Translations under genes and position numbers: made by a program | Notes under the pieces: generated by a model | Seen by the model: the letters and a program-made list of their open reading frames with translations, nothing else | Told to the model about the DNA's origin: nothing | The model's database searches: none | DNA from: Actinomycetes bacterium | GTDB taxonomy: Bacteria; Actinomycetota; Acidimicrobiia; UBA5794 | Length of the DNA: 19,283 bases | Assembly (NCBI GenBank): GCA_030598305.1 | Contig: JAUVQC010000001.1 | Location: 1-19,283 of the forward strand | Direction: 5' to 3' | Shown: in pieces, positions 3,197 to 13,665 of the stretch | Position numbering within the stretch: position 1 is the stretch's first letter | How the letters are laid out: each line of letters opens with the position of its first letter

Positions 3197-3219
3197 TAGA
3201 CCGGACTGAGTCCGGTCTA
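3197..3219. terminator. Hairpin between convergent genes, possible terminator
   Basis: TAGACCGGAC (3197-3206) and GTCCGGTCTA (3210-3219) form a perfect 10-bp stem with a 3-base loop. It is the middle of three hairpins between the repeat-protein gene and ssrA. Being symmetrical, it could serve either strand. Confidence 0.5.
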
Positions 3220-3235
3220 GAACGCTGGGTACGCG

Positions 3236-3262
3236 GGAATAGGGGCCCGGGGCCCCTATTCC
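3236..3262 (-). terminator. Terminator hairpin of ssrA
   Basis: Two perfect 12-base arms (3236-3247 and 3251-3262, GGAATAGGGGCC and its complement) flank a CGG loop. It begins a few bases after the mature tmRNA 3' end on the minus strand, so it is best read as the ssrA terminator. It may work in both directions. Confidence 0.75.
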
Positions 3263-3265
3263 TTG

Positions 3266-3622
3266 GGTGGAGGTGGGGGGAATCGAACCCCCGTCCCACG
3301 AGGTGTTGGCGTCGGCATCTCCGAGCGCAGCCAACAGCGAGCTTTCGGAACACGAGGACTCTGTTGGCAAGCACCCTCATGCCCTATCCGGAATTGTCTT
3401 ATCCCGCCGGTCCCGGAAATCCCGGCGGGGGCGTCCCACATTGCGTTGCCCTGATCCGGCGAGGTGGGCACCCTCCGGGAGGACAGGAGCGTTTATCTAC
3501 GCTGCCAGTGCGTAACTTTCGTTGTTTGCACTTATATTTGTACCGGCTCTTTAACGAGGACTCCGGTGACCTCGGCTCGCTTCCGGCGCCTCAACTCTCA
3601 CGGTCGAAACCATGTCACCCCC
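3266..3622 (-). ncRNA. ssrA: Transfer-messenger RNA (tmRNA), one-piece form
   Basis: tmRNA rescues stalled ribosomes together with SmpB, adding a degradation tag to the unfinished protein. On the minus strand the 5' end GGGGGTGACATGGTTTCGACC and the 3' end with T-loop GGGTTCGATTCC are diagnostic. The first seven bases (GGGGGTG) pair with CACCTCC near the 3' end to form the acceptor stem with one G-U pair, followed by discriminator A. Both halves are in one gene about 357 bases long, so it is not the permuted two-piece type. The terminal CCA seems incompletely encoded (A-CCC), so CCA is probably completed after transcription. The tag frame lies at 3497-3529. smpB is 3.3 kb away on the same strand, beyond the thioredoxin/yjjI/yjjW group. 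Confidence 0.96.
3497..3529 (-). other. tmRNA proteolysis-tag reading frame (ANNESYALAA)
   Basis: The resume codon GCA at 3529-3527 follows TATAAGT. The frame reads A-N-N-E-S-Y-A-L-A-A and ends at TAG (3499-3497). The ALAA end is the usual recognition signal for ClpXP-type proteases. Together with the alanine charged on the tmRNA, the appended tag would be AANNESYALAA. Confidence 0.9.
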
Positions 3623-3722
3623 GCACTGCGGGGACGTAAGGAACACGTCCACAGCTTTATCGTACCAATCAGGTCCGATATCGCACACCAAGAACACGGA
3701 TATCGTCATTACCCTTCCGCAC

Positions 3723-4565
3723 ATGGACGAAGCAACGAACGATGAACGACCGACGGCTGAAGACGAAATAGCCGGTGAACCACCCGCCGAACCAGCGGCA
3801 CCGGGTCTCGAGAAGAGGACCGAACGCACATCGTCCTCCAAGCCGATCCTCATCACCGTCGGGGTGCTTGCGGTGGGACTCTTCGTTGCAAGCCAGATCT
3901 TCATGATCAGCTCGCTCCAGTCAACGCAGGGCCAGATCGAGTCACTCGATGATCAGGTGACCAACCTCGGCGGCTCGCTGTATGACGTGTCCCAGACCGT
4001 CGACGATATCGCCAAGGACGCGAGGGCAGCAGCAGCCAACAATGCTGCAGGCGGGGCAACACCGGCACCAGCCGTCCCAGCGGGGTTTCTTCCCCGGTAC
4101 TCAAACGAAGGCCCTGACCAGGCAGTCGGGATGGAGATGAGTCTCGTAGAGGGACCGGACGCCTACTCAGAAACAGTGCTCGCGATCGACCCGGCCGATG
4201 GCACGAAGCGCGTGTGGATGGTCTGGGCCCACTGGTGCCCGTACTGTCAGCAGGAGCTCCCCGAGCTCAACGCCTGGTGGCCCGAAGCCAGGAACAACTT
4301 CTCCGGGGCCGACCTTGTCACGGTGACCACCTCCATGGATCCCTCACGCGGTAACCCACTCGAGCCATACCTCGAGGATTCCCAATTCATGTTCCCTGTC
4401 GTCGTGGACACAGATACGAAGATCGCGGCCCAGATGGGCGTGAACGCCTTCCCGTTCTGGGTGGTCACCGATGGTGACGGGACCGTCCTCTTCCGCTCGG
4501 CTGGGGCCCTCCCCATTGATCAGGTCGAACAGCTCTTCGTGCAACTCCTCCAGTTCGACGCCTAG
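3723..4565 (+). CDS. Membrane-anchored thioredoxin-like protein (TlpA/redoxin type)
   Basis: The 280-residue protein has an acidic, proline-rich cytoplasmic tail (1-38), one membrane helix (about 41-62), a short coiled-coil or linker (about 65-120) and an outside thioredoxin domain. The redox motif CPYC is at 172-175 in WAHWCPYCQQELP, and the cis-proline is Pro244 in NAFPFWVV. The fold order resembles TlpA/DsbE-type thiol-disulfide oxidoreductases, which reduce or exchange disulfides of exported proteins. The start at ATG 3723 is chosen because translation from 3612 would begin inside ssrA on the other strand. No clear ribosome binding site precedes it. It is divergent from ssrA and lies 68 bases upstream of yjjI. 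The partner protein is unknown. A yjjI promoter is seen in the gap, so the two need not share one transcript. Confidence 0.85.
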   Translation: MDEATNDERPTAEDEIAGEPPAEPAAPGLEKRTERTSSSKPILITVGVLAVGLFVASQIFMISSLQSTQGQIESLDDQVTNLGGSLYDVSQTVDDIAKDARAAAANNAAGGATPAPAVPAGFLPRYSNEGPDQAVGMEMSLVEGPDAYSETVLAIDPADGTKRVWMVWAHWCPYCQQELPELNAWWPEARNNFSGADLVTVTTSMDPSRGNPLEPYLEDSQFMFPVVVDTDTKIAAQMGVNAFPFWVVTDGDGTVLFRSAGALPIDQVEQLFVQLLQFDA

Positions 4566-4619
4566 CTCCAGCACTCAGCGATTCCGTAGCTGAACGCTAC
4601 GCGACCGCGTACCGCTCCG

Positions 4620-4633
4620 CTAGACTCCGCACC
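4620..4633 (+). promoter_or_regulatory. Candidate leaderless promoter of yjjI (-10 box TAGACT)
   Basis: TAGACT (4621-4626) lies exactly seven bases before the ATG, the spacing expected if transcription starts at the start codon itself. No Shine-Dalgarno sequence is present in the CCGCACC that follows. The same 14-base sequence with one extra T occurs at 497-511 before ald. Confidence 0.5.
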
Positions 4634-6184
4634 ATGGAGATGGAAGAGTTCACAAAGCAGGCACGTTCGATCGTCGAGGACCCCGGCCTGACGTTCCACC
4701 AGCGCAAACACTATCTCGCGGTGCTGGCAGAGAGTGCGCTCCCCTATCCCGACATCACACCGGAAGCGGCCGAGGCGCTCAACAAGGGCATCATCGACGA
4801 CATGTTCGAGGGACACGCCCCGTACCGCCCACGATACGTCCTGCCGGACTACGAGCTCGCGATTCGTCGGGGATCCGAGCATCTCGAACTCGACCCGCCG
4901 ACGAACCTCGACGAAGCCATCAACTTCCTCCTGATCCTCTACACACAGGTGCCGTCCATCACCGGATTCCCAGTGTTTCTTGGTGACATCGACGCCCTCC
5001 TCCTGCCGTTCGTCGACGACGTCTCGGACGAAGACCTTCGCGAGAGTCTGCGCCTCTTCTGGATCTCGCTCGACCGCATCCTCCCCGACGGATTCGTCCA
5101 CGCCAACATCGGCCCCGAGGACAATCGTGTGCTCCGTACCATCCTCGATGTTGAGCGCGAGGTGCAACAGATCGTCCCCAACCTGTCCCTCAAGGTGGAC
5201 CCCGTTCACACGAGCGATGACCTGCTCCTCGATGCCATCGGGACCGTGTTTGAAACTGCGAAACCACACTTTGTCAACCACCCGATGATGGTCGATGACC
5301 TCGGCGTCGAATATGGCGTGGTCAGTTGCTACAACTCGCTCAAGAAGGGCGGAGGGAGCCACACCATGGTTCGCCTCAACCTCAAGGAGGCGGCTCTGGC
5401 CCACACCGGTTCAGCCGAATCGTTCCTCGACGAGACGCTGCCAAGGTATGCAGCGCTCAATGCGGAGGTCATGGCAGCCCGCATTCGCTATCTCGTTGAA
5501 GAGGCAGGATTCTTCGAACACGACTTCCTCGTACGCGAGGGAATCGTGCGCCTTGAGAGGTTCTCAGCGATGTTCGGAGTATTCGGTTTGGCGGAGGCAG
5601 TCAACATCCTGATGGAGCACGATGGGCTGGATGCGGCATACGGCGATGGAGGTATCGCCGACACGTTCAGCTATCGCATCATCGAGCGCGTGAGCGCCTT
5701 TGTACATGGATATGAGATGCCCTATTGCGAGGGTGGAGCCGGGCATGCGTTCCTGCACAGCCAGTCAGGCATCGACTCGGACGTCGAAGTCACGGCCGGT
5801 ACGAGGATCCCCATCGGAACCGAACCTGAGACCTTTCAACACATCATGACCGTGGCACCCCACCACAAGTACTTCACCTCGGGAGTGTCCGATATTTTCC
5901 ACATCGACGACACCGTCCAACGCAACCCCGAGGCGATGATCGACATGATCAGGGGGGCCTTCACCAACGGGATGCGCGATTTCACGTTCAATGTCGATTC
6001 AAACGACTTCGTGCGCATCACCGGTTATCTGGTCCGCAAATCGGAATTGGCCCAATACGCAGAGGGGAACGAGCGGCACTCGAGCACGTCGTTTGCCGCA
6101 GGGTCTGTGGCCAACTCCCATGTCAATGACCGGACTGTCAAGCGAGTGCTGATCCGTGAACGAGCTGCGCGGCCTCGTCACTGA
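4634..6184 (+). CDS. yjjI: YjjI-family glycyl radical enzyme (DUF3029), substrate unknown
   Basis: Glycyl radical enzymes run difficult anaerobic reactions using a backbone glycine radical and an active-site thiyl radical, and are split by oxygen when active. At 516 residues this matches the length of E. coli YjjI. The radical glycine is Gly464 in FVRITGYLVRK near the C-terminus. The likely thiyl cysteine is Cys232 in VVSCYNSLKKGGGSHTMVRLNL. Cys365 (MPYCEGGAGHAF) is the other conserved-looking cysteine. The glycine-rich stretch and the long tail after the glycine (52 residues) differ from pyruvate formate-lyase. The activase gene overlaps the 3' end by 29 bases. The reaction of YjjI is, to my knowledge, not established. 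The start at ATG 4634 is supported by the promoter-like box directly before it. Family placement is by recognition of motifs and length, without a database search. Confidence 0.85.
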   Translation: MEMEEFTKQARSIVEDPGLTFHQRKHYLAVLAESALPYPDITPEAAEALNKGIIDDMFEGHAPYRPRYVLPDYELAIRRGSEHLELDPPTNLDEAINFLLILYTQVPSITGFPVFLGDIDALLLPFVDDVSDEDLRESLRLFWISLDRILPDGFVHANIGPEDNRVLRTILDVEREVQQIVPNLSLKVDPVHTSDDLLLDAIGTVFETAKPHFVNHPMMVDDLGVEYGVVSCYNSLKKGGGSHTMVRLNLKEAALAHTGSAESFLDETLPRYAALNAEVMAARIRYLVEEAGFFEHDFLVREGIVRLERFSAMFGVFGLAEAVNILMEHDGLDAAYGDGGIADTFSYRIIERVSAFVHGYEMPYCEGGAGHAFLHSQSGIDSDVEVTAGTRIPIGTEPETFQHIMTVAPHHKYFTSGVSDIFHIDDTVQRNPEAMIDMIRGAFTNGMRDFTFNVDSNDFVRITGYLVRKSELAQYAEGNERHSSTSFAAGSVANSHVNDRTVKRVLIRERAARPRH

Positions 6185-6881
6185 CACGATTCGCTTCTCC
6201 CTGGTCGACGGACCGGGGAATCGGTTCGTGGTCTTCCTTCAGGGATGCAACTTCGATTGCACAGCCTGCCACAACCCCCACACCATCCCCATGCAGTCGG
6301 ACGACGCCACGTTCATGACCGTTGACGAGATCATCGACCAGATCCGTCCTGTTGCTGGCTTCCTGAGGGGGGTAACTGTCTCTGGCGGCGAAGCCACGCT
6401 TCAACATGGATTCGTACGTGCACTGTTCTCGGCGATCAAGGCAGACACCGAGCTCGCGCATCTCACAACATTGATCGACACCAACGGCTCGACTTCAGCC
6501 GAGATCTGGGACGACCTCGCCGACGTCATGGATGGCGCAATGGTCGACCTCAAGGCGTTGGATCCAAAGACACATCACGTCATGACCACCCGTGACAACG
6601 AACGTGTACTCGCGTCCATCAGACAGCTCTCCCAAATGGGGAAGCTCCATGAGGTTCGATTGATGGTCGTCCCCGGGGAGAACGACGACGCGGCGGAGAT
6701 CGCTCGCACCGCAGCATGGCTCCACGACATCAATCCCGACATGAACGTCAAACTCATCGGCTTCCGCCCCCACGGCGTTCGCCCGGAGGCAGCACGTGTT
6801 CCGGCGGCCTCCCCACAGCACATGGAAGACCTCGCGTTGATTGTCACCGAGACCGGTATCGGTAACGTCTCAATCGTGTGA
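6156..6881 (+). CDS. yjjW: Radical-SAM glycyl radical enzyme activase, YjjW-like
   Basis: This 241-residue radical-SAM protein has the CxxxCxxC cluster motif at Cys31, Cys35 and Cys38 (GCNFDCTACHNP) and the SAM-binding SGGE at 77-80. The opening GPGNRFVVFLQGC is typical of activases that abstract a hydrogen from the glycine of a glycyl radical enzyme. It starts at GTG 6156 inside the 3' end of yjjI, an overlap of 29 bases that suggests translational coupling. No strong ribosome binding site is visible. It has no second cysteine cluster between the radical-SAM motif and SGGE, whereas E. coli YjjW is longer and, as I recall, carries a ferredoxin-like insert. It is convergent with smpB, with 80 bases between and no clear terminator. 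Confidence 0.87.
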   Translation: MNELRGLVTDTIRFSLVDGPGNRFVVFLQGCNFDCTACHNPHTIPMQSDDATFMTVDEIIDQIRPVAGFLRGVTVSGGEATLQHGFVRALFSAIKADTELAHLTTLIDTNGSTSAEIWDDLADVMDGAMVDLKALDPKTHHVMTTRDNERVLASIRQLSQMGKLHEVRLMVVPGENDDAAEIARTAAWLHDINPDMNVKLIGFRPHGVRPEAARVPAASPQHMEDLALIVTETGIGNVSIV

Positions 6882-6961
6882 TGCACCTCCCCCGGCGCAA
6901 CGTTCACCGTGTCGAGACGTGACCCGGTATGTCGCAGACGACCTTGCTTGTGACTGCGAAT

Positions 6962-7417
6962 TCACCTTCGATGCGACTGTGCCCTGTCCATCTCGCGCTT
7001 CTGCTGGCGCGCAACGATGTCCCGACGCTTGTCACGCGTGCGTTTTCCCTTGCCGAGTCCGAGTTCGACCTTTGCCTTGCCATTCACGAAGTACACCTGA
7101 AGAGGTACCAGCGTCAGGCCCTCCTCCTTGATCCGGCCGAACAACCTGTCGATCTCCCGACGGTGCAATAGCAGCTTGCGAGGACGCTCAGGTTCGTGGC
7201 CACCACCCTCGGCGAACGAGTAGGGAGCAATGTGGGCGTTCTCGAGCCACACTTCGCCACCGCGGATCGATGCGTAGGAGTCCTTGAGTTGTATCTGGGC
7301 ATCACGAAGAGATTTCACCTCGGAACCACGAAGCACCATCCCTGCCTCGAACGTGTCGAGGATCTCGTAGTTGTACCGCGCCTTGCGATTCGTTGCGATG
7401 ACCTTGCGACCAGACAT
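6962..7417 (-). CDS. smpB: SsrA-binding protein SmpB
   Basis: SmpB binds the tRNA-like part of tmRNA and brings it to stalled ribosomes. The family signature is clear: KVIATNRKARYNYEI at the N-terminus, GMVLRGSEVKSLR, and a basic C-terminal tail (GKGKRTRDKRRDIVARQQKREMDRA) that enters the mRNA channel. Start ATG 7417 gives 151 residues, the normal length. A GTG at 7435 in the same frame would add six residues, and neither has a strong ribosome binding site. The M23 peptidase gene ends 35 bases upstream, so smpB is probably the last gene of the prfB/ftsEX cluster. The ssrA gene lies 3.3 kb away on the same strand. Confidence 0.96.
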   Translation of the reverse strand: MSGRKVIATNRKARYNYEILDTFEAGMVLRGSEVKSLRDAQIQLKDSYASIRGGEVWLENAHIAPYSFAEGGGHEPERPRKLLLHRREIDRLFGRIKEEGLTLVPLQVYFVNGKAKVELGLGKGKRTRDKRRDIVARQQKREMDRAQSHRR

Positions 7418-7452
7418 GTCGGCGAGGCTACCCACCGAAACACGGATAGCGG

Positions 7453-8643
7453 CTAGATGTAGTTCGCAGGGTTCTTCGGAACACCATTGATGCGGACCTC
7501 GAAGTGCAGATGTGGGCCCGTGGACAGGCCCGTCGATCCGATGTAGCCAATCGTCCCACCGGCCGTGACCTTCTGGCCAACGGATGCACCAAGCCGAGAC
7601 TGGTGCGCGTACAGGGTCACCATGCCCCCACCGTGGTCGATCATGATGGTGTTGCCGAACCCGCCCTTGACGCCGGCGAAGATCACCGTGCCACTGGCTG
7701 CAGCTTTGATCGGCTCACCTTGGGCCGCGTTCATGTCGACGCCATTGTGCATCCGTGTCGTACCAAGAATCGGATGCACCCTGGGCCCGAACCCGGATGA
7801 AATCGCTCCCGGTACCGGTCGCACGAGCCTGGCCGGCTTCGTACCGGTCGGCTGGGACGCCGCCTTGATCTCCGACTTGATCGAGGACTCTTCACGAGCA
7901 AGGCCGCGAAGCTCTCCCTCGAACTCTGCGATCGCAGCCCGCACGTCATCGAGGAGCGCTGCTTGACGGTCGTACTCCGCGGACAATGCGGCTCGCTTCA
8001 GCTCGAGGTCAGCCTCCGCCACCTCGATCTCAGCAGCCGTCCTGACGAGTGCAGCAACCTCCGATTCGATAGCTGCCTCAACAGCCTTGACCTTGGCCTC
8101 TTCGGCCTCCTGCATCGCGACGAGTTCGCCATAGCGCCCTGCAGCACCCGAGCGGTAGCCGGTCAACACGTCAAGGTACGCGACGCCGATAGACACCTCG
8201 GTCACTGCAGTTGCCGAGAACGCGATCGATGGCTGGGATGTTCCACCACTCATGTATGCCTGGAGGACGGCGGCTTTTGCATCATCGAGTGCCGAGTTGC
8301 GCCTGACCCTGATATCTGACAGCTCTGCGAACCGTTCAGCAAGTTCAGCGCGAACCGTGTCCAGATCAAGATTGCGATCTACCTGTTCGATCTCGATTCG
8401 GGTCAACCTGGCGACAGCCGCGGCCATCTCCGTTTCCACGAGGTCGAGCTTTTCGTCGGCAGCCAGGACATCCCGGGCGAGCATGGAGCGCTCAGCGGCG
8501 ACGTCGTCCATTGCCGCCTCGATCGCGAGGATGGATTGACGAATCTCCTTCAGATCCTGTTCCAGAGTGTCACCGACAGCGGGAACCGCGAGTGAACCCA
8601 CGAGGGTTGCGACGAGAACGAGGAAAAGGGCGCGGCGAATCAC
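7453..8643 (-). CDS. Secreted coiled-coil M23 (LytM) peptidase, FtsEX partner
   Basis: This 396-residue protein has a signal peptide (1-24), two long coiled-coil stretches (about 25-115 and 175-265) and a C-terminal LytM/M23 domain (about 272-396). Zinc ligands and catalytic residues are all present: His299 and Asp303 (HNGVDM) and His378/His380 (HLHFEV). The layout matches EnvC/PcsB-type proteins that FtsX switches on during division. EnvC itself has lost its zinc site and works by activating amidases; this protein should cut peptide cross-links itself. The GTG start overlaps the ftsX stop (GTGA), placing it in one coupled unit with ftsEX. Control by FtsX is inferred from gene order and architecture. 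Confidence 0.9.
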
Positions 8644-11622: not shown

Positions 11623-13665
11623 TTACTGCACGTCGCCTTCGGGTGTACCCGTCGTCTTTGCGAGGGACCGCAACCACTGTGCTCCTGACGTTCGGTCGCC
11701 AGCCAGTGGCACACCGCCAGCGATCCGCTCTCCCTCGACGACACGGCTCGGTGGTGCCGGTGCGTGCTCCTCTTTTGCTGCCTTGATCCGGTCGGCACGG
11801 TCGATCTCGAGAGCAACAAGCGCTTCCTCCACAGCCACGACCTGTTCCTCAGATGACGTCGGCAGGTCAAGGCCGTAGTACACCATCCGGGCCATGTCAG
11901 CGCGATAGTCGTGGCCGAAGGACCCGAAGTGGCCCGGCACGGTCACCATCGCGTTCGCTGCATCGATCATCACCTGAATGCCTGTCACGATCGGAGCCCA
12001 TGCCATGTCCTCAGGCACACCACGCCCGCGTTGGCCTTTGAGCCATTCGGGTTCCCTGATGAGCAGATCTGGTCCCATGACCGCGATCGGGTCGTTGTCA
12101 TGTGACAGGATCACGGCACGCAGCGCCTTGCGCTCCTGGTCCGAGAGCTCCATCAACTTCTCTGGTTGATCGAACACGCCGACCGTTCCTCGCGGTACCA
12201 GACCGCTCGACCCGCGACCCATTCCGCTCTTGGACCACTTCGCCATCCACGGCAGTCCGGCCCACAGCGCCTTGTCGATTCCGTAGTGATCGAACCCGGC
12301 CATCCCGTTGTGCATCACGACATCCGAGCTTGTCCATGCGCCGAGGCTCTCGCCGAACACCACAACCTTCGGCCGATCCTCTGGGGGCCGACCGTTGAGG
12401 CGCTGCTTGATACCCCACAGAAGGAGGCGGAACTGGCCGCGACCGAGCGCAACCTTCTGGAGACTGAGGAAGGAGGGGAATTTCCCGTACTGGATGCACA
12501 CGGAAGCGATGTTGCCCCTTGTGAACAGCTCTGCGGACTCGATCATCGTCTGATCGATCCAGCCGGTCCCCGTTGGTGACACCAGAAGCAGGTACTCCCT
12601 GTCGAAGGCACCGGTACGTTCGAGTTCATCAAGGGCCATCTCCGCTCGACCCGAGGGATAGAGCGGCTCCGAGTTGTATCCGATAAAGACCCTGATCGGG
12701 TGCTCTGCTCCGGACTCATCCATTGTTTCATCGATGTACTCAGGTGTGAGCACGTCCGTCACGAATCGCCGGCCTTGCTGCCCGAGGTCTGCGAACGATG
12801 AGATGCTCCCCGGACCACCAGACAAGAGTGGACTCGTAGGTGCGAGGGAGTATCCACCCTCGACTCTCTCGTTGCCACGCCCGATGTAGCCAACACCGCT
12901 GTTGTAGAGACCGGTGAGACCGCCCGCCCACATCGCCGCGTTGACGGTCCGCCCAAGGAGACGTCTCGAAGGTGTGTCGCCGAAGTAGTCCATCCACGCA
13001 CCTCGTGTCGCCTGGAACGCGCGCGTTCCTGCCATGCCGACCGATGTCACCGCAATGCCGGTGGCGACCGCCGGGGCGAGCTCGTTCGGCTGGGGAATCG
13101 GCCAGCGCTGTTGCTCCGCCTTCCGTTTGTCGAGCCTGTCCTTGGACCACAGCAACACCCCGACAAGCGCGGCAGCCGACACGAGTGCCGGTCGCAACAT
13201 CGATGAAGACGGGTAGCGGTGTCTTCCCGCCAAACCGATGTCGAACACCGCTCCTCCGATGGAGGCAGATTTCACCACACGGCCCGCTGTTCTGGCACCG
13301 GACCTGGCAAGGGTCTCCCCGTCGCGAACCGGGAGTCGTTCGAATGAGTATCCGACACCACCAACGAACGTCCGCATCAGGAGTCGATGCGACAGCGGGT
13401 CGCCTTCGTTGACAATCGAGCCCGTGACACCCTCAACGATCGCCGTGACGCTCCGTGCGGCGAGCACGGACATACCAGCGATCGCTCCCTGGTGCATCGA
13501 TGAATGCGGCATCAATGATGGGCCGAAGGACTCGACGAATGTGAACGTCTCGAGCGGTGCCGATGCCGAACCAGTGACCGGATTGGCCCAGTCAATCGCC
13601 CGCTTGGCGATGACAGCGCCCGTCAACCCCTTCGTCACGTTCCTGAGTATCTCGATGCTCCCCAT
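11623..13665 (-). CDS. Alpha/beta hydrolase with N-terminal hydrophobic region (DUF2319/Abhydrolase_9 type)
   Basis: The 680-residue protein has an N-terminal half with several weak hydrophobic helices (about 55-80, 157-173, 196-214, 240-260) and a C-terminal hydrolase domain from about 320. The nucleophile elbow is GESLG with Ser440. A candidate acid is Asp525 in SHDNDPI, and a candidate base is His585 in FGHDYRADM. The phrases SPTGTGWID (363-371) and the NDPI motif match my memory of the DUF2319 membrane hydrolases found in actinobacteria. The substrate is unknown; a lipid or cell-envelope ester is a guess. It lies between secA and prfB, 90 bases after secA, on the same strand. The last 60 residues are charged and probably disordered. 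Confidence 0.75.
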   Translation of the reverse strand: MGSIEILRNVTKGLTGAVIAKRAIDWANPVTGSASAPLETFTFVESFGPSLMPHSSMHQGAIAGMSVLAARSVTAIVEGVTGSIVNEGDPLSHRLLMRTFVGGVGYSFERLPVRDGETLARSGARTAGRVVKSASIGGAVFDIGLAGRHRYPSSSMLRPALVSAAALVGVLLWSKDRLDKRKAEQQRWPIPQPNELAPAVATGIAVTSVGMAGTRAFQATRGAWMDYFGDTPSRRLLGRTVNAAMWAGGLTGLYNSGVGYIGRGNERVEGGYSLAPTSPLLSGGPGSISSFADLGQQGRRFVTDVLTPEYIDETMDESGAEHPIRVFIGYNSEPLYPSGRAEMALDELERTGAFDREYLLLVSPTGTGWIDQTMIESAELFTRGNIASVCIQYGKFPSFLSLQKVALGRGQFRLLLWGIKQRLNGRPPEDRPKVVVFGESLGAWTSSDVVMHNGMAGFDHYGIDKALWAGLPWMAKWSKSGMGRGSSGLVPRGTVGVFDQPEKLMELSDQERKALRAVILSHDNDPIAVMGPDLLIREPEWLKGQRGRGVPEDMAWAPIVTGIQVMIDAANAMVTVPGHFGSFGHDYRADMARMVYYGLDLPTSSEEQVVAVEEALVALEIDRADRIKAAKEEHAPAPPSRVVEGERIAGGVPLAGDRTSGAQWLRSLAKTTGTPEGDVQ

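Follow-up and report, generated by a model that had tools for sequence, protein, structure and literature searches.

Here we describe a pair of overlapping genes on an actinobacterial contig (JAUVQC010000001.1), lying in a stretch of 19,283 nucleotides (nt) that, as a whole, is called the window below. Two open reading frames (ORFs) follow each other on the same strand. The first (4634-6184, +, 516 residues) is yjjI, recognized as a glycyl radical enzyme (GRE) gene by the TIGR04040 and PF11230 profiles and an AlphaFold2 model of its product; the second (6156-6881, +, GTG start, 241 residues) encodes a short form of the yjjW-type radical S-adenosylmethionine (SAM) activase, recognized by TIGR04041, an AlphaFold2 model and a fold match. 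They share 29 nt (6156-6184, +), an overlap of the same length as in Escherichia coli K-12. An earlier, sequence-only reading of this DNA had pointed out the pair and overlooked that the activase is a shortened form devoid of a ferredoxin domain. Related loci (the best 80 of 433 from a genome scan, hence the nearest relatives) bear L-numbers, and genomes in the comparison samples bear G-numbers.

The assignment of the first product to the YjjI family, for which that reading had proposed a profile search, is firmly established by such a search: TIGR04040 matches it over its full length (profile positions 2-497 of 497) with 684.7 bits against a cut-off of 498.3, and PF11230 with 661.2 bits against a cut-off of 23 (E 9.7e-199). 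YjjI is a known uncharacterised family, correctly called and already so named in public records, and it is also true, as that reading had stated, that it has no assigned reaction and that in E. coli yjjI stands beside deo genes. With the motif RITGYLV beginning at residue 461, the predicted radical position is Gly464 (codon 6023-6025, +). The protein contains only two cysteines, Cys232 and Cys365. The former, proposed as the thiyl residue (codon 5327-5329, +, in VSCYNS), is invariant together with Gly464 across 79 aligned homologues, including enterobacterial ones at 41-46% identity, whereas Cys365 is not. Furthermore, weak profile alignments place Cys232 opposite the second cysteine of the CC pair of E. 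coli pyruvate formate-lyase (PFL) and opposite the MGC cysteine of E. coli NrdD, in agreement with its predicted role.

The AlphaFold2 model of YjjI (pLDDT 91.3, pTM 0.90) superposes on the fold of class III ribonucleotide reductase (RNR) over residues 2-504, a range that includes both Cys232 and Gly464. Searches of PDB sequences gave no match under E 0.9 with YjjI alone and none at E 0.01 with a profile of 79 YjjI rows; the likeness to class III RNR is drawn from the fold comparison and from weak profile matches. Among the latter, PF13597 gives 24.1 bits on the window YjjI, under its gathering cut-off of 26.2, and some other YjjI proteins pass it (28.2 bits in L065; 11 of 30 genomes), which fits a shared fold. 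No ATP-cone match was returned by the Pfam scan and, with a single conserved cysteine out of two, YjjI has no Cys4 zinc site and no second conserved cysteine for its active site. Its cysteine loop reads SCYNS; the motif of glycyl radical dehydratases is GCxE. An NrdD-like domain had been predicted for YjjI, together with a guess at nitrogen metabolism from co-expression, in the available excerpt of PMC3228777 (2011).

The downstream gene is, as previously read, an overlapping radical SAM activase with a CxxxCxxC motif. It scores 251.4 bits with TIGR04041, barely over the cut-off of 250.2, and five other short activases scanned with this profile straddle the cut-off (214.7-251.0 bits). The motif CNFDCTAC (residues 31-38; 6246-6269, +) supplies the predicted ligands of the SAM [4Fe-4S] cluster, and SGGEA occupies residues 76-80. 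In E. coli YjjW the CxxxCxxC motif is followed by an insert that spans 47 alignment columns and contains eight cysteines; the window activase has neither the insert nor a single extra cysteine, and the junction HNP-HTIPM (6276-6293, +) marks in the alignments the site of the 8-Cys ferredoxin domain, of about 45 residues, of its relatives. This two-cluster domain is kept by E. coli and by the syntenic relatives L002, L003, L004 and L051. The AlphaFold2 model of the activase (pLDDT 93.9) finds its closest fold match in the PFL-activating enzyme (3c8f, TM 0.88). Seven database proteins 69-99% identical to the window activase are all 241-246 residues long, and the junction is common to the six of them that were aligned; the short form is therefore no assembly error. 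In their source records, several short activases are named, for instance, 'pyruvate formate lyase activating enzyme' or 'radical SAM protein'.

Across the 80 loci, 40 activases are short and 38 long, one being cut by a contig end (L034) and one N-masked (L026, which the script had labelled long). Eight cysteines are kept in 25 of the long activases; the other 13 lack the second cysteine of the second cluster motif. In these 7-Cys inserts (L014, L025, L027, L029, L035, L036, L040, L041, L049, L065, L068, L071 and L075) that cysteine of the second CxxCxxCxxxC motif is replaced, which would perhaps leave a [3Fe-4S] cluster or none. The long form occurs in E. coli, Aeromonas, Trueperaceae and L024/L030 (Deltaproteobacteria/SAR324), and the match to E. 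coli YjjW extends over its whole length in the records from Vibrio, Proteus, Haliovirga and Chloroflexota. The short forms observed came from Actinomycetota, with one more (L044) from a further bacterium; one short clade numbers 25 members, Nocardioides and a Nanopelagicaceae row among them. YjjW is over the cut-off in 19 of 50 genomes of the GTDB family to which G001, with L002, belongs, and all 19 matches span the insert. Of the 516 YjjI columns, one tracks the activase type (S145, against A in relatives; 0.68 in short, 0.03 in long); selected with an ad hoc threshold and confounded by descent, it is a lead only.

In the YjjI tree (82 rows), the window groups with L002, L003, L004 and L051, all long, with a support of 100/100, and the activase type needs five changes, all five forced by the branches starred for support. 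An insert-free activase tree of 81 rows likewise needs five changes, four of them forced, and a tree of 78 activase rows, from which L001, L026, L034 and L044 were omitted (long branches, masked or cut), needs four, three of them forced. On the latter, a single clade of all short forms is rejected by the approximately unbiased (AU) test (p 0.0003). The positions of L027 and L029 differ between the YjjI and activase trees. A fair statement is that the activase type changed independently three to five times in these phylogenies; losses are the simplest reading, and some of the changes could be regains.

Further evidence on the fate of the pair comes from the relative G595 (L112, L137), where the same slot of the chromosome, between a redoxin gene and smpB, holds an open frame of 418 residues (L137 423-1679) that is matched in part by PF11230 (103 bits, profile positions 98-433), either a YjjI remnant or a paralogue, with neither the thiyl cysteine nor the Gly domain. 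It is followed by a radical SAM activase (L137 1616-2485) with an intact CxxxCxxC motif and a Cys-free loop. The ORF could be read as a dead glycyl radical enzyme or as a new non-radical protein.

An activase gene stands beside yjjI in all 80 related loci. Moreover, in 47 of the 79 measurable records (82 examined) the first cysteine codon of the activase comes exactly 62 nt after the stop of yjjI; where a start codon occurs at the expected distance, the overlap is 29 nt in 35 of the 82 records and 32 nt in 12. Both the 62-nt spacing and the 29-nt overlap are common to E. coli K-12 and many actinobacteria. This conservation suggests selection on the translational coupling of yjjI and yjjW, and the coupling is the sole conserved context found. 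A scan of 3200-7500 was uninformative as to transcription (promoter-like sites, 0 against 1.4 expected; terminator-like sites, 3 against 2.8 expected).

Around the pair, the order in the window is ssrA - redoxin - yjjI - yjjW - smpB - M23 - ftsX. The tmRNA gene (ssrA, 3265-3622, -) and smpB (6962-7435, -), the latter named from sequence, flank the insertion slot, and a thioredoxin-like gene of the core region, with AhpC-TSA/Redoxin matches (3723-4565, +), precedes yjjI. FtsX and the M23 peptidase were matched by the profile scan, and SmpB, FtsE, release factor 2 and SecA are presumed from their ORFs; judged from these names, the region is of the housekeeping kind. A gene (11623-13665) for a 680-residue Abhydrolase_9 protein stands between the release-factor-2-like gene and secA.

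The sequence-only reading had expected this neighbourhood to offer a fresh clue to the substrate, an expectation that the comparison does not support. The order of L003 is identical to that of the window, tmRNA included. In the GTDB family of G001, where the redoxin gene is often found between ssrA and the opposite-strand smpB, a smpB homologue is present in 42 of 50 genomes, and 30 smpB loci were fetched. Three of them (L107-L109) have yjjIW at this place, and they come from the same genomes as L051, L002 and L003 and are not independent. In 15 of the 30 the redoxin gene adjoins smpB with no yjjIW between them, the tmRNA being visible in seven (L114, L116, L119, L126, L127, L129, L130); in L110, L115, L131 and L136 ssrA lies less than 100 nt from smpB, with neither redoxin nor yjjIW there; the remaining loci, except L112, either stop short or contain no match to the redoxin gene or yjjIW. 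In turn, in genomes such as G003, G070, G497, G527, G622 and G644 YjjI is encoded on a contig other than that of smpB. Since the slot exists without yjjIW and yjjI occurs elsewhere, the flanks are incidental and do not point to a substrate. The broader gene-neighbourhood comparison that had been proposed (gene calls on 82 records with clustering, the neighbours of 31 loci and cluster representatives being inspected) revealed no partner conserved across lineages except yjjW. Searched by tblastn, E. coli DeoC, DeoA, DeoB and DeoD had no match (E 1e-3) in any of the 80 loci, many of them contig-truncated, and were equally unmatched (E 1e-4) in five more distant records, from Vibrio, Aeromonas, Proteus, Haliovirga and Chloroflexota. 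A P450 cluster beside four loci was set aside and ascribed to the many P450 genes that actinobacteria carry. A gene for a PnrA/Bmp nucleoside-type ABC transporter stands beside yjjIW in two separate lineages (L065/L071/L075 and L073). Neither the activase nor the census described next reveals the job of YjjI.

The distribution of YjjI was examined in 30 of the 34 genomes in which it passes the cut-off (G010, G340, G364 and G482 were left out; G340 has PF01228 matches). A protein of the haem-copper oxidase family PF00115, which also takes in nitric oxide reductases, is encoded in 26 of the 30. A true NrdD is found in one, the other 11 NRDD matches falling on YjjI itself, and any PF01228 protein in five. 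YjjI is the only recognizable glycyl radical enzyme in 25 of these genomes, 23 of the 30 being of this kind and also encoding PF00115. In a class sample of 296 Acidimicrobiia genomes, YjjI passes the cut-off in 20 (24 at E 0.001) and a PF01228 protein occurs in one; in a phylum sample of 396 genomes, YjjI occurs in nine and PF01228 in 78, two of the nine having both. A completeness of at least 80 was required in the phylum sample only, which makes single absences weak, the class contrast being large. YjjI, an enzyme ordinarily associated with anaerobic life, is nearly the sole glycyl radical enzyme of Acidimicrobiia. The anaerobic or micro-oxic phase proposed earlier for the organism is partly supported: an oxic life with anoxic spells fits the PF00115 proteins of G001 and G002, the nearest relatives with the same locus, the respiration of the window organism itself being deduced from relatives. 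According to a table in the accessible part of PMC2634741 (2009), E. coli yjjI and yjjW are FNR-activated.

Altogether, the pair would be an intact two-gene glycyl radical enzyme cassette. By analogy with the families concerned, YjjW would cleave SAM at its three-Cys cluster and abstract a hydrogen from Gly464, the glycyl radical would pass to Cys232, and the resulting thiyl radical would abstract a hydrogen from a small substrate held inside a barrel built like that of class III RNR. Because the window activase has no relay clusters, the electron would reach its SAM cluster directly, as in the PFL-activating enzyme. We infer that a small polar metabolite most likely undergoes radical elimination or isomerisation, in a reaction that would run when oxygen drops in a cell otherwise respiring it. 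Nucleotide reduction seems unlikely given that no conserved second cysteine, zinc site or ATP cone was found, and so does a standard GCxE eliminase, given the SCYN motif of YjjI. As for its history, the cassette may have entered the redoxin-smpB slot of this clade and later lost the ferredoxin domain of its activase in place, in what would be one of several independent losses in Actinomycetota.

Other explanations concern the job of YjjI. Its substrate could be a metabolite derived from a nucleoside or a pentose, a possibility hinted at by the deoCABD genes, divergent beside yjjI in E. coli. The PnrA/Bmp-type gene adjoins yjjI in L065, L071 and L075, of one lineage, and follows yjjW in L073, of another, with a 32% match about 5 kb away in L040. 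A gene for adenosine deaminase is likewise present in L065, together with a partial match to cytidine deaminase that falls just below the cut-off; in L019 a DeoC/LacD-family aldolase is encoded two genes upstream, and L032 has an upstream Indigoidine_A/PfkB pair, which we take to serve pseudouridine breakdown. The fold, too, is shared with an enzyme whose substrates are nucleotides. However, the E. coli Deo proteins are unmatched in the 80 loci, many of them truncated, and in the five more distant records, the neighbours vary between most lineages and the Bmp adjacency is an uncontrolled observation, so that we consider a substrate of this class unlikely. That YjjI would be a minor RNR is suggested by the fold and the weak PF13597 match, and is nevertheless highly improbable: that score lies below the cut-off, no Pfam ATP cone is matched, of the two cysteines one is unconserved, which leaves neither a Cys4 site nor a conserved second active-site residue, and Cys175 of E. 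coli NrdD, presumably its second active-site cysteine, falls opposite a gap in the weak alignment.

Regarding the activase, the pair might be on its way out, the domain loss being a first step of decay and the window YjjI poorly active or unused. The 13 loci deprived of one second-cluster ligand could represent a step towards whole-domain loss, the same-slot remnant of G595 has lost Cys232 and the Gly domain beside an activase with a Cys-free loop, and the branch of the window activase is long. Yet the CxxxCxxC, GGE, Cys232 and Gly464 motifs of the window are intact, its seven close homologues are equally short, and short activases persist over many lineages (half of the loci, with the 25 members of one clade), which makes decay distinctly doubtful. 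There is, finally, a slight chance that the short activase is an acquisition from a different lineage and was not shortened in place. Short forms are common in other Actinomycetota, and in the activase tree the window stands beside L002/L003/L004/L051 at 92/85, just below the starred level; against this, the AU test rejects a single short clade, the window lies inside a starred set of otherwise long rows (99/99), and its nearest activase rows by path (L002, L004, L051, L003) are also the relatives of its YjjI.

As a whole, the combination of the radical mechanism, a role at low oxygen and an in-place loss of the ferredoxin domain is probably the best explanation. Several points count against it. 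Both the class of substrate and the type of reaction are conjecture, and no YjjI activity, radical or substrate was found in the available text of the open-access literature. The remnant in G595 indicates that the pair can decay, and the window activase sits on a branch of 0.57, compared with 0.25-0.38 in its long relatives, which could mean relaxed constraint. A PF00115 match is no proof of oxygen respiration, and that of the window organism is inferred from relatives known largely from metagenome-assembled genomes.

A ferredoxin domain apparently lost several times in one activase family, once where close relatives at the same locus keep it, provides natural enzyme pairs with and without the domain that can be compared, and the question of its function becomes testable. 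Moreover, YjjI is kept by carriers that mostly encode PF00115 (26 of 30), in a class nearly without other GREs (1 of 296), a pattern that speaks against YjjI roles tied to anaerobic DNA synthesis or fermentation and reduces the range of possible jobs. More tentatively, it is possible that Acidimicrobiia YjjI is specialised to oxygen respirers as their only GRE, serving during brief oxygen loss, and that the repeated removal of two oxygen-sensitive clusters from its activase would be an oxic adaptation in which a general electron donor reduces the SAM cluster directly; in that case nature would have provided, in the window and the long-form relatives that share its locus, matched variants from which to learn the function of the domain. 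In the open-access literature searched, no titles or abstracts among the matches listed deal with ferredoxin-domain loss in YjjW or with YjjI biochemistry, and both the missing domain and the lone-GRE pattern appear new relative to the portions of that literature available.

Among known systems, the closest is the YjjI/YjjW pair of E. coli K-12 (b4380/b4379), with 45% and 46% identity, respectively, the same glycine, the same cysteine and the same 29-nt overlap. Unlike the window activase, however, E. coli YjjW has the 8-Cys ferredoxin domain, and its genes adjoin deoCABD, whereas the window pair lies between a redoxin gene and smpB. Class III RNR (NrdD) shares the predicted fold of the window YjjI and differs from it in the ATP cone, the Cys4 zinc site, the conserved second cysteine and the PF13597 score, which stays under the cut-off. 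The activases of other GREs with a ferredoxin domain (IbsAE, HPAD-AE, CutD) belong to the same radical SAM core family and carry the same kind of 8-Cys two-cluster domain as the relatives of the window activase, whose own form has lost it. For HPAD, the ferredoxin domain is reportedly required for a lasting radical, as the title of a 2014 study has it. Activation by IbsAE works without reconstituted ferredoxin-domain clusters, according to the accessible part of PMC10239695, and the passages available from this source and from PMC11528403 state that what the auxiliary clusters or their domain do in glycyl radical activases is unknown or largely unknown. The PFL-activating enzyme PflA (3c8f), in turn, resembles the window activase in having no ferredoxin domain, in its length (245 versus 241 residues) and in its structure (TM 0.88, at 28% identity), but the window protein reaches only 145.8 bits with TIGR02493, against an equivalog cut-off of 231.75. 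This shared absence looks convergent, since our trees, which hold no PflA row, place the window activase among the domain-bearing YjjW proteins.
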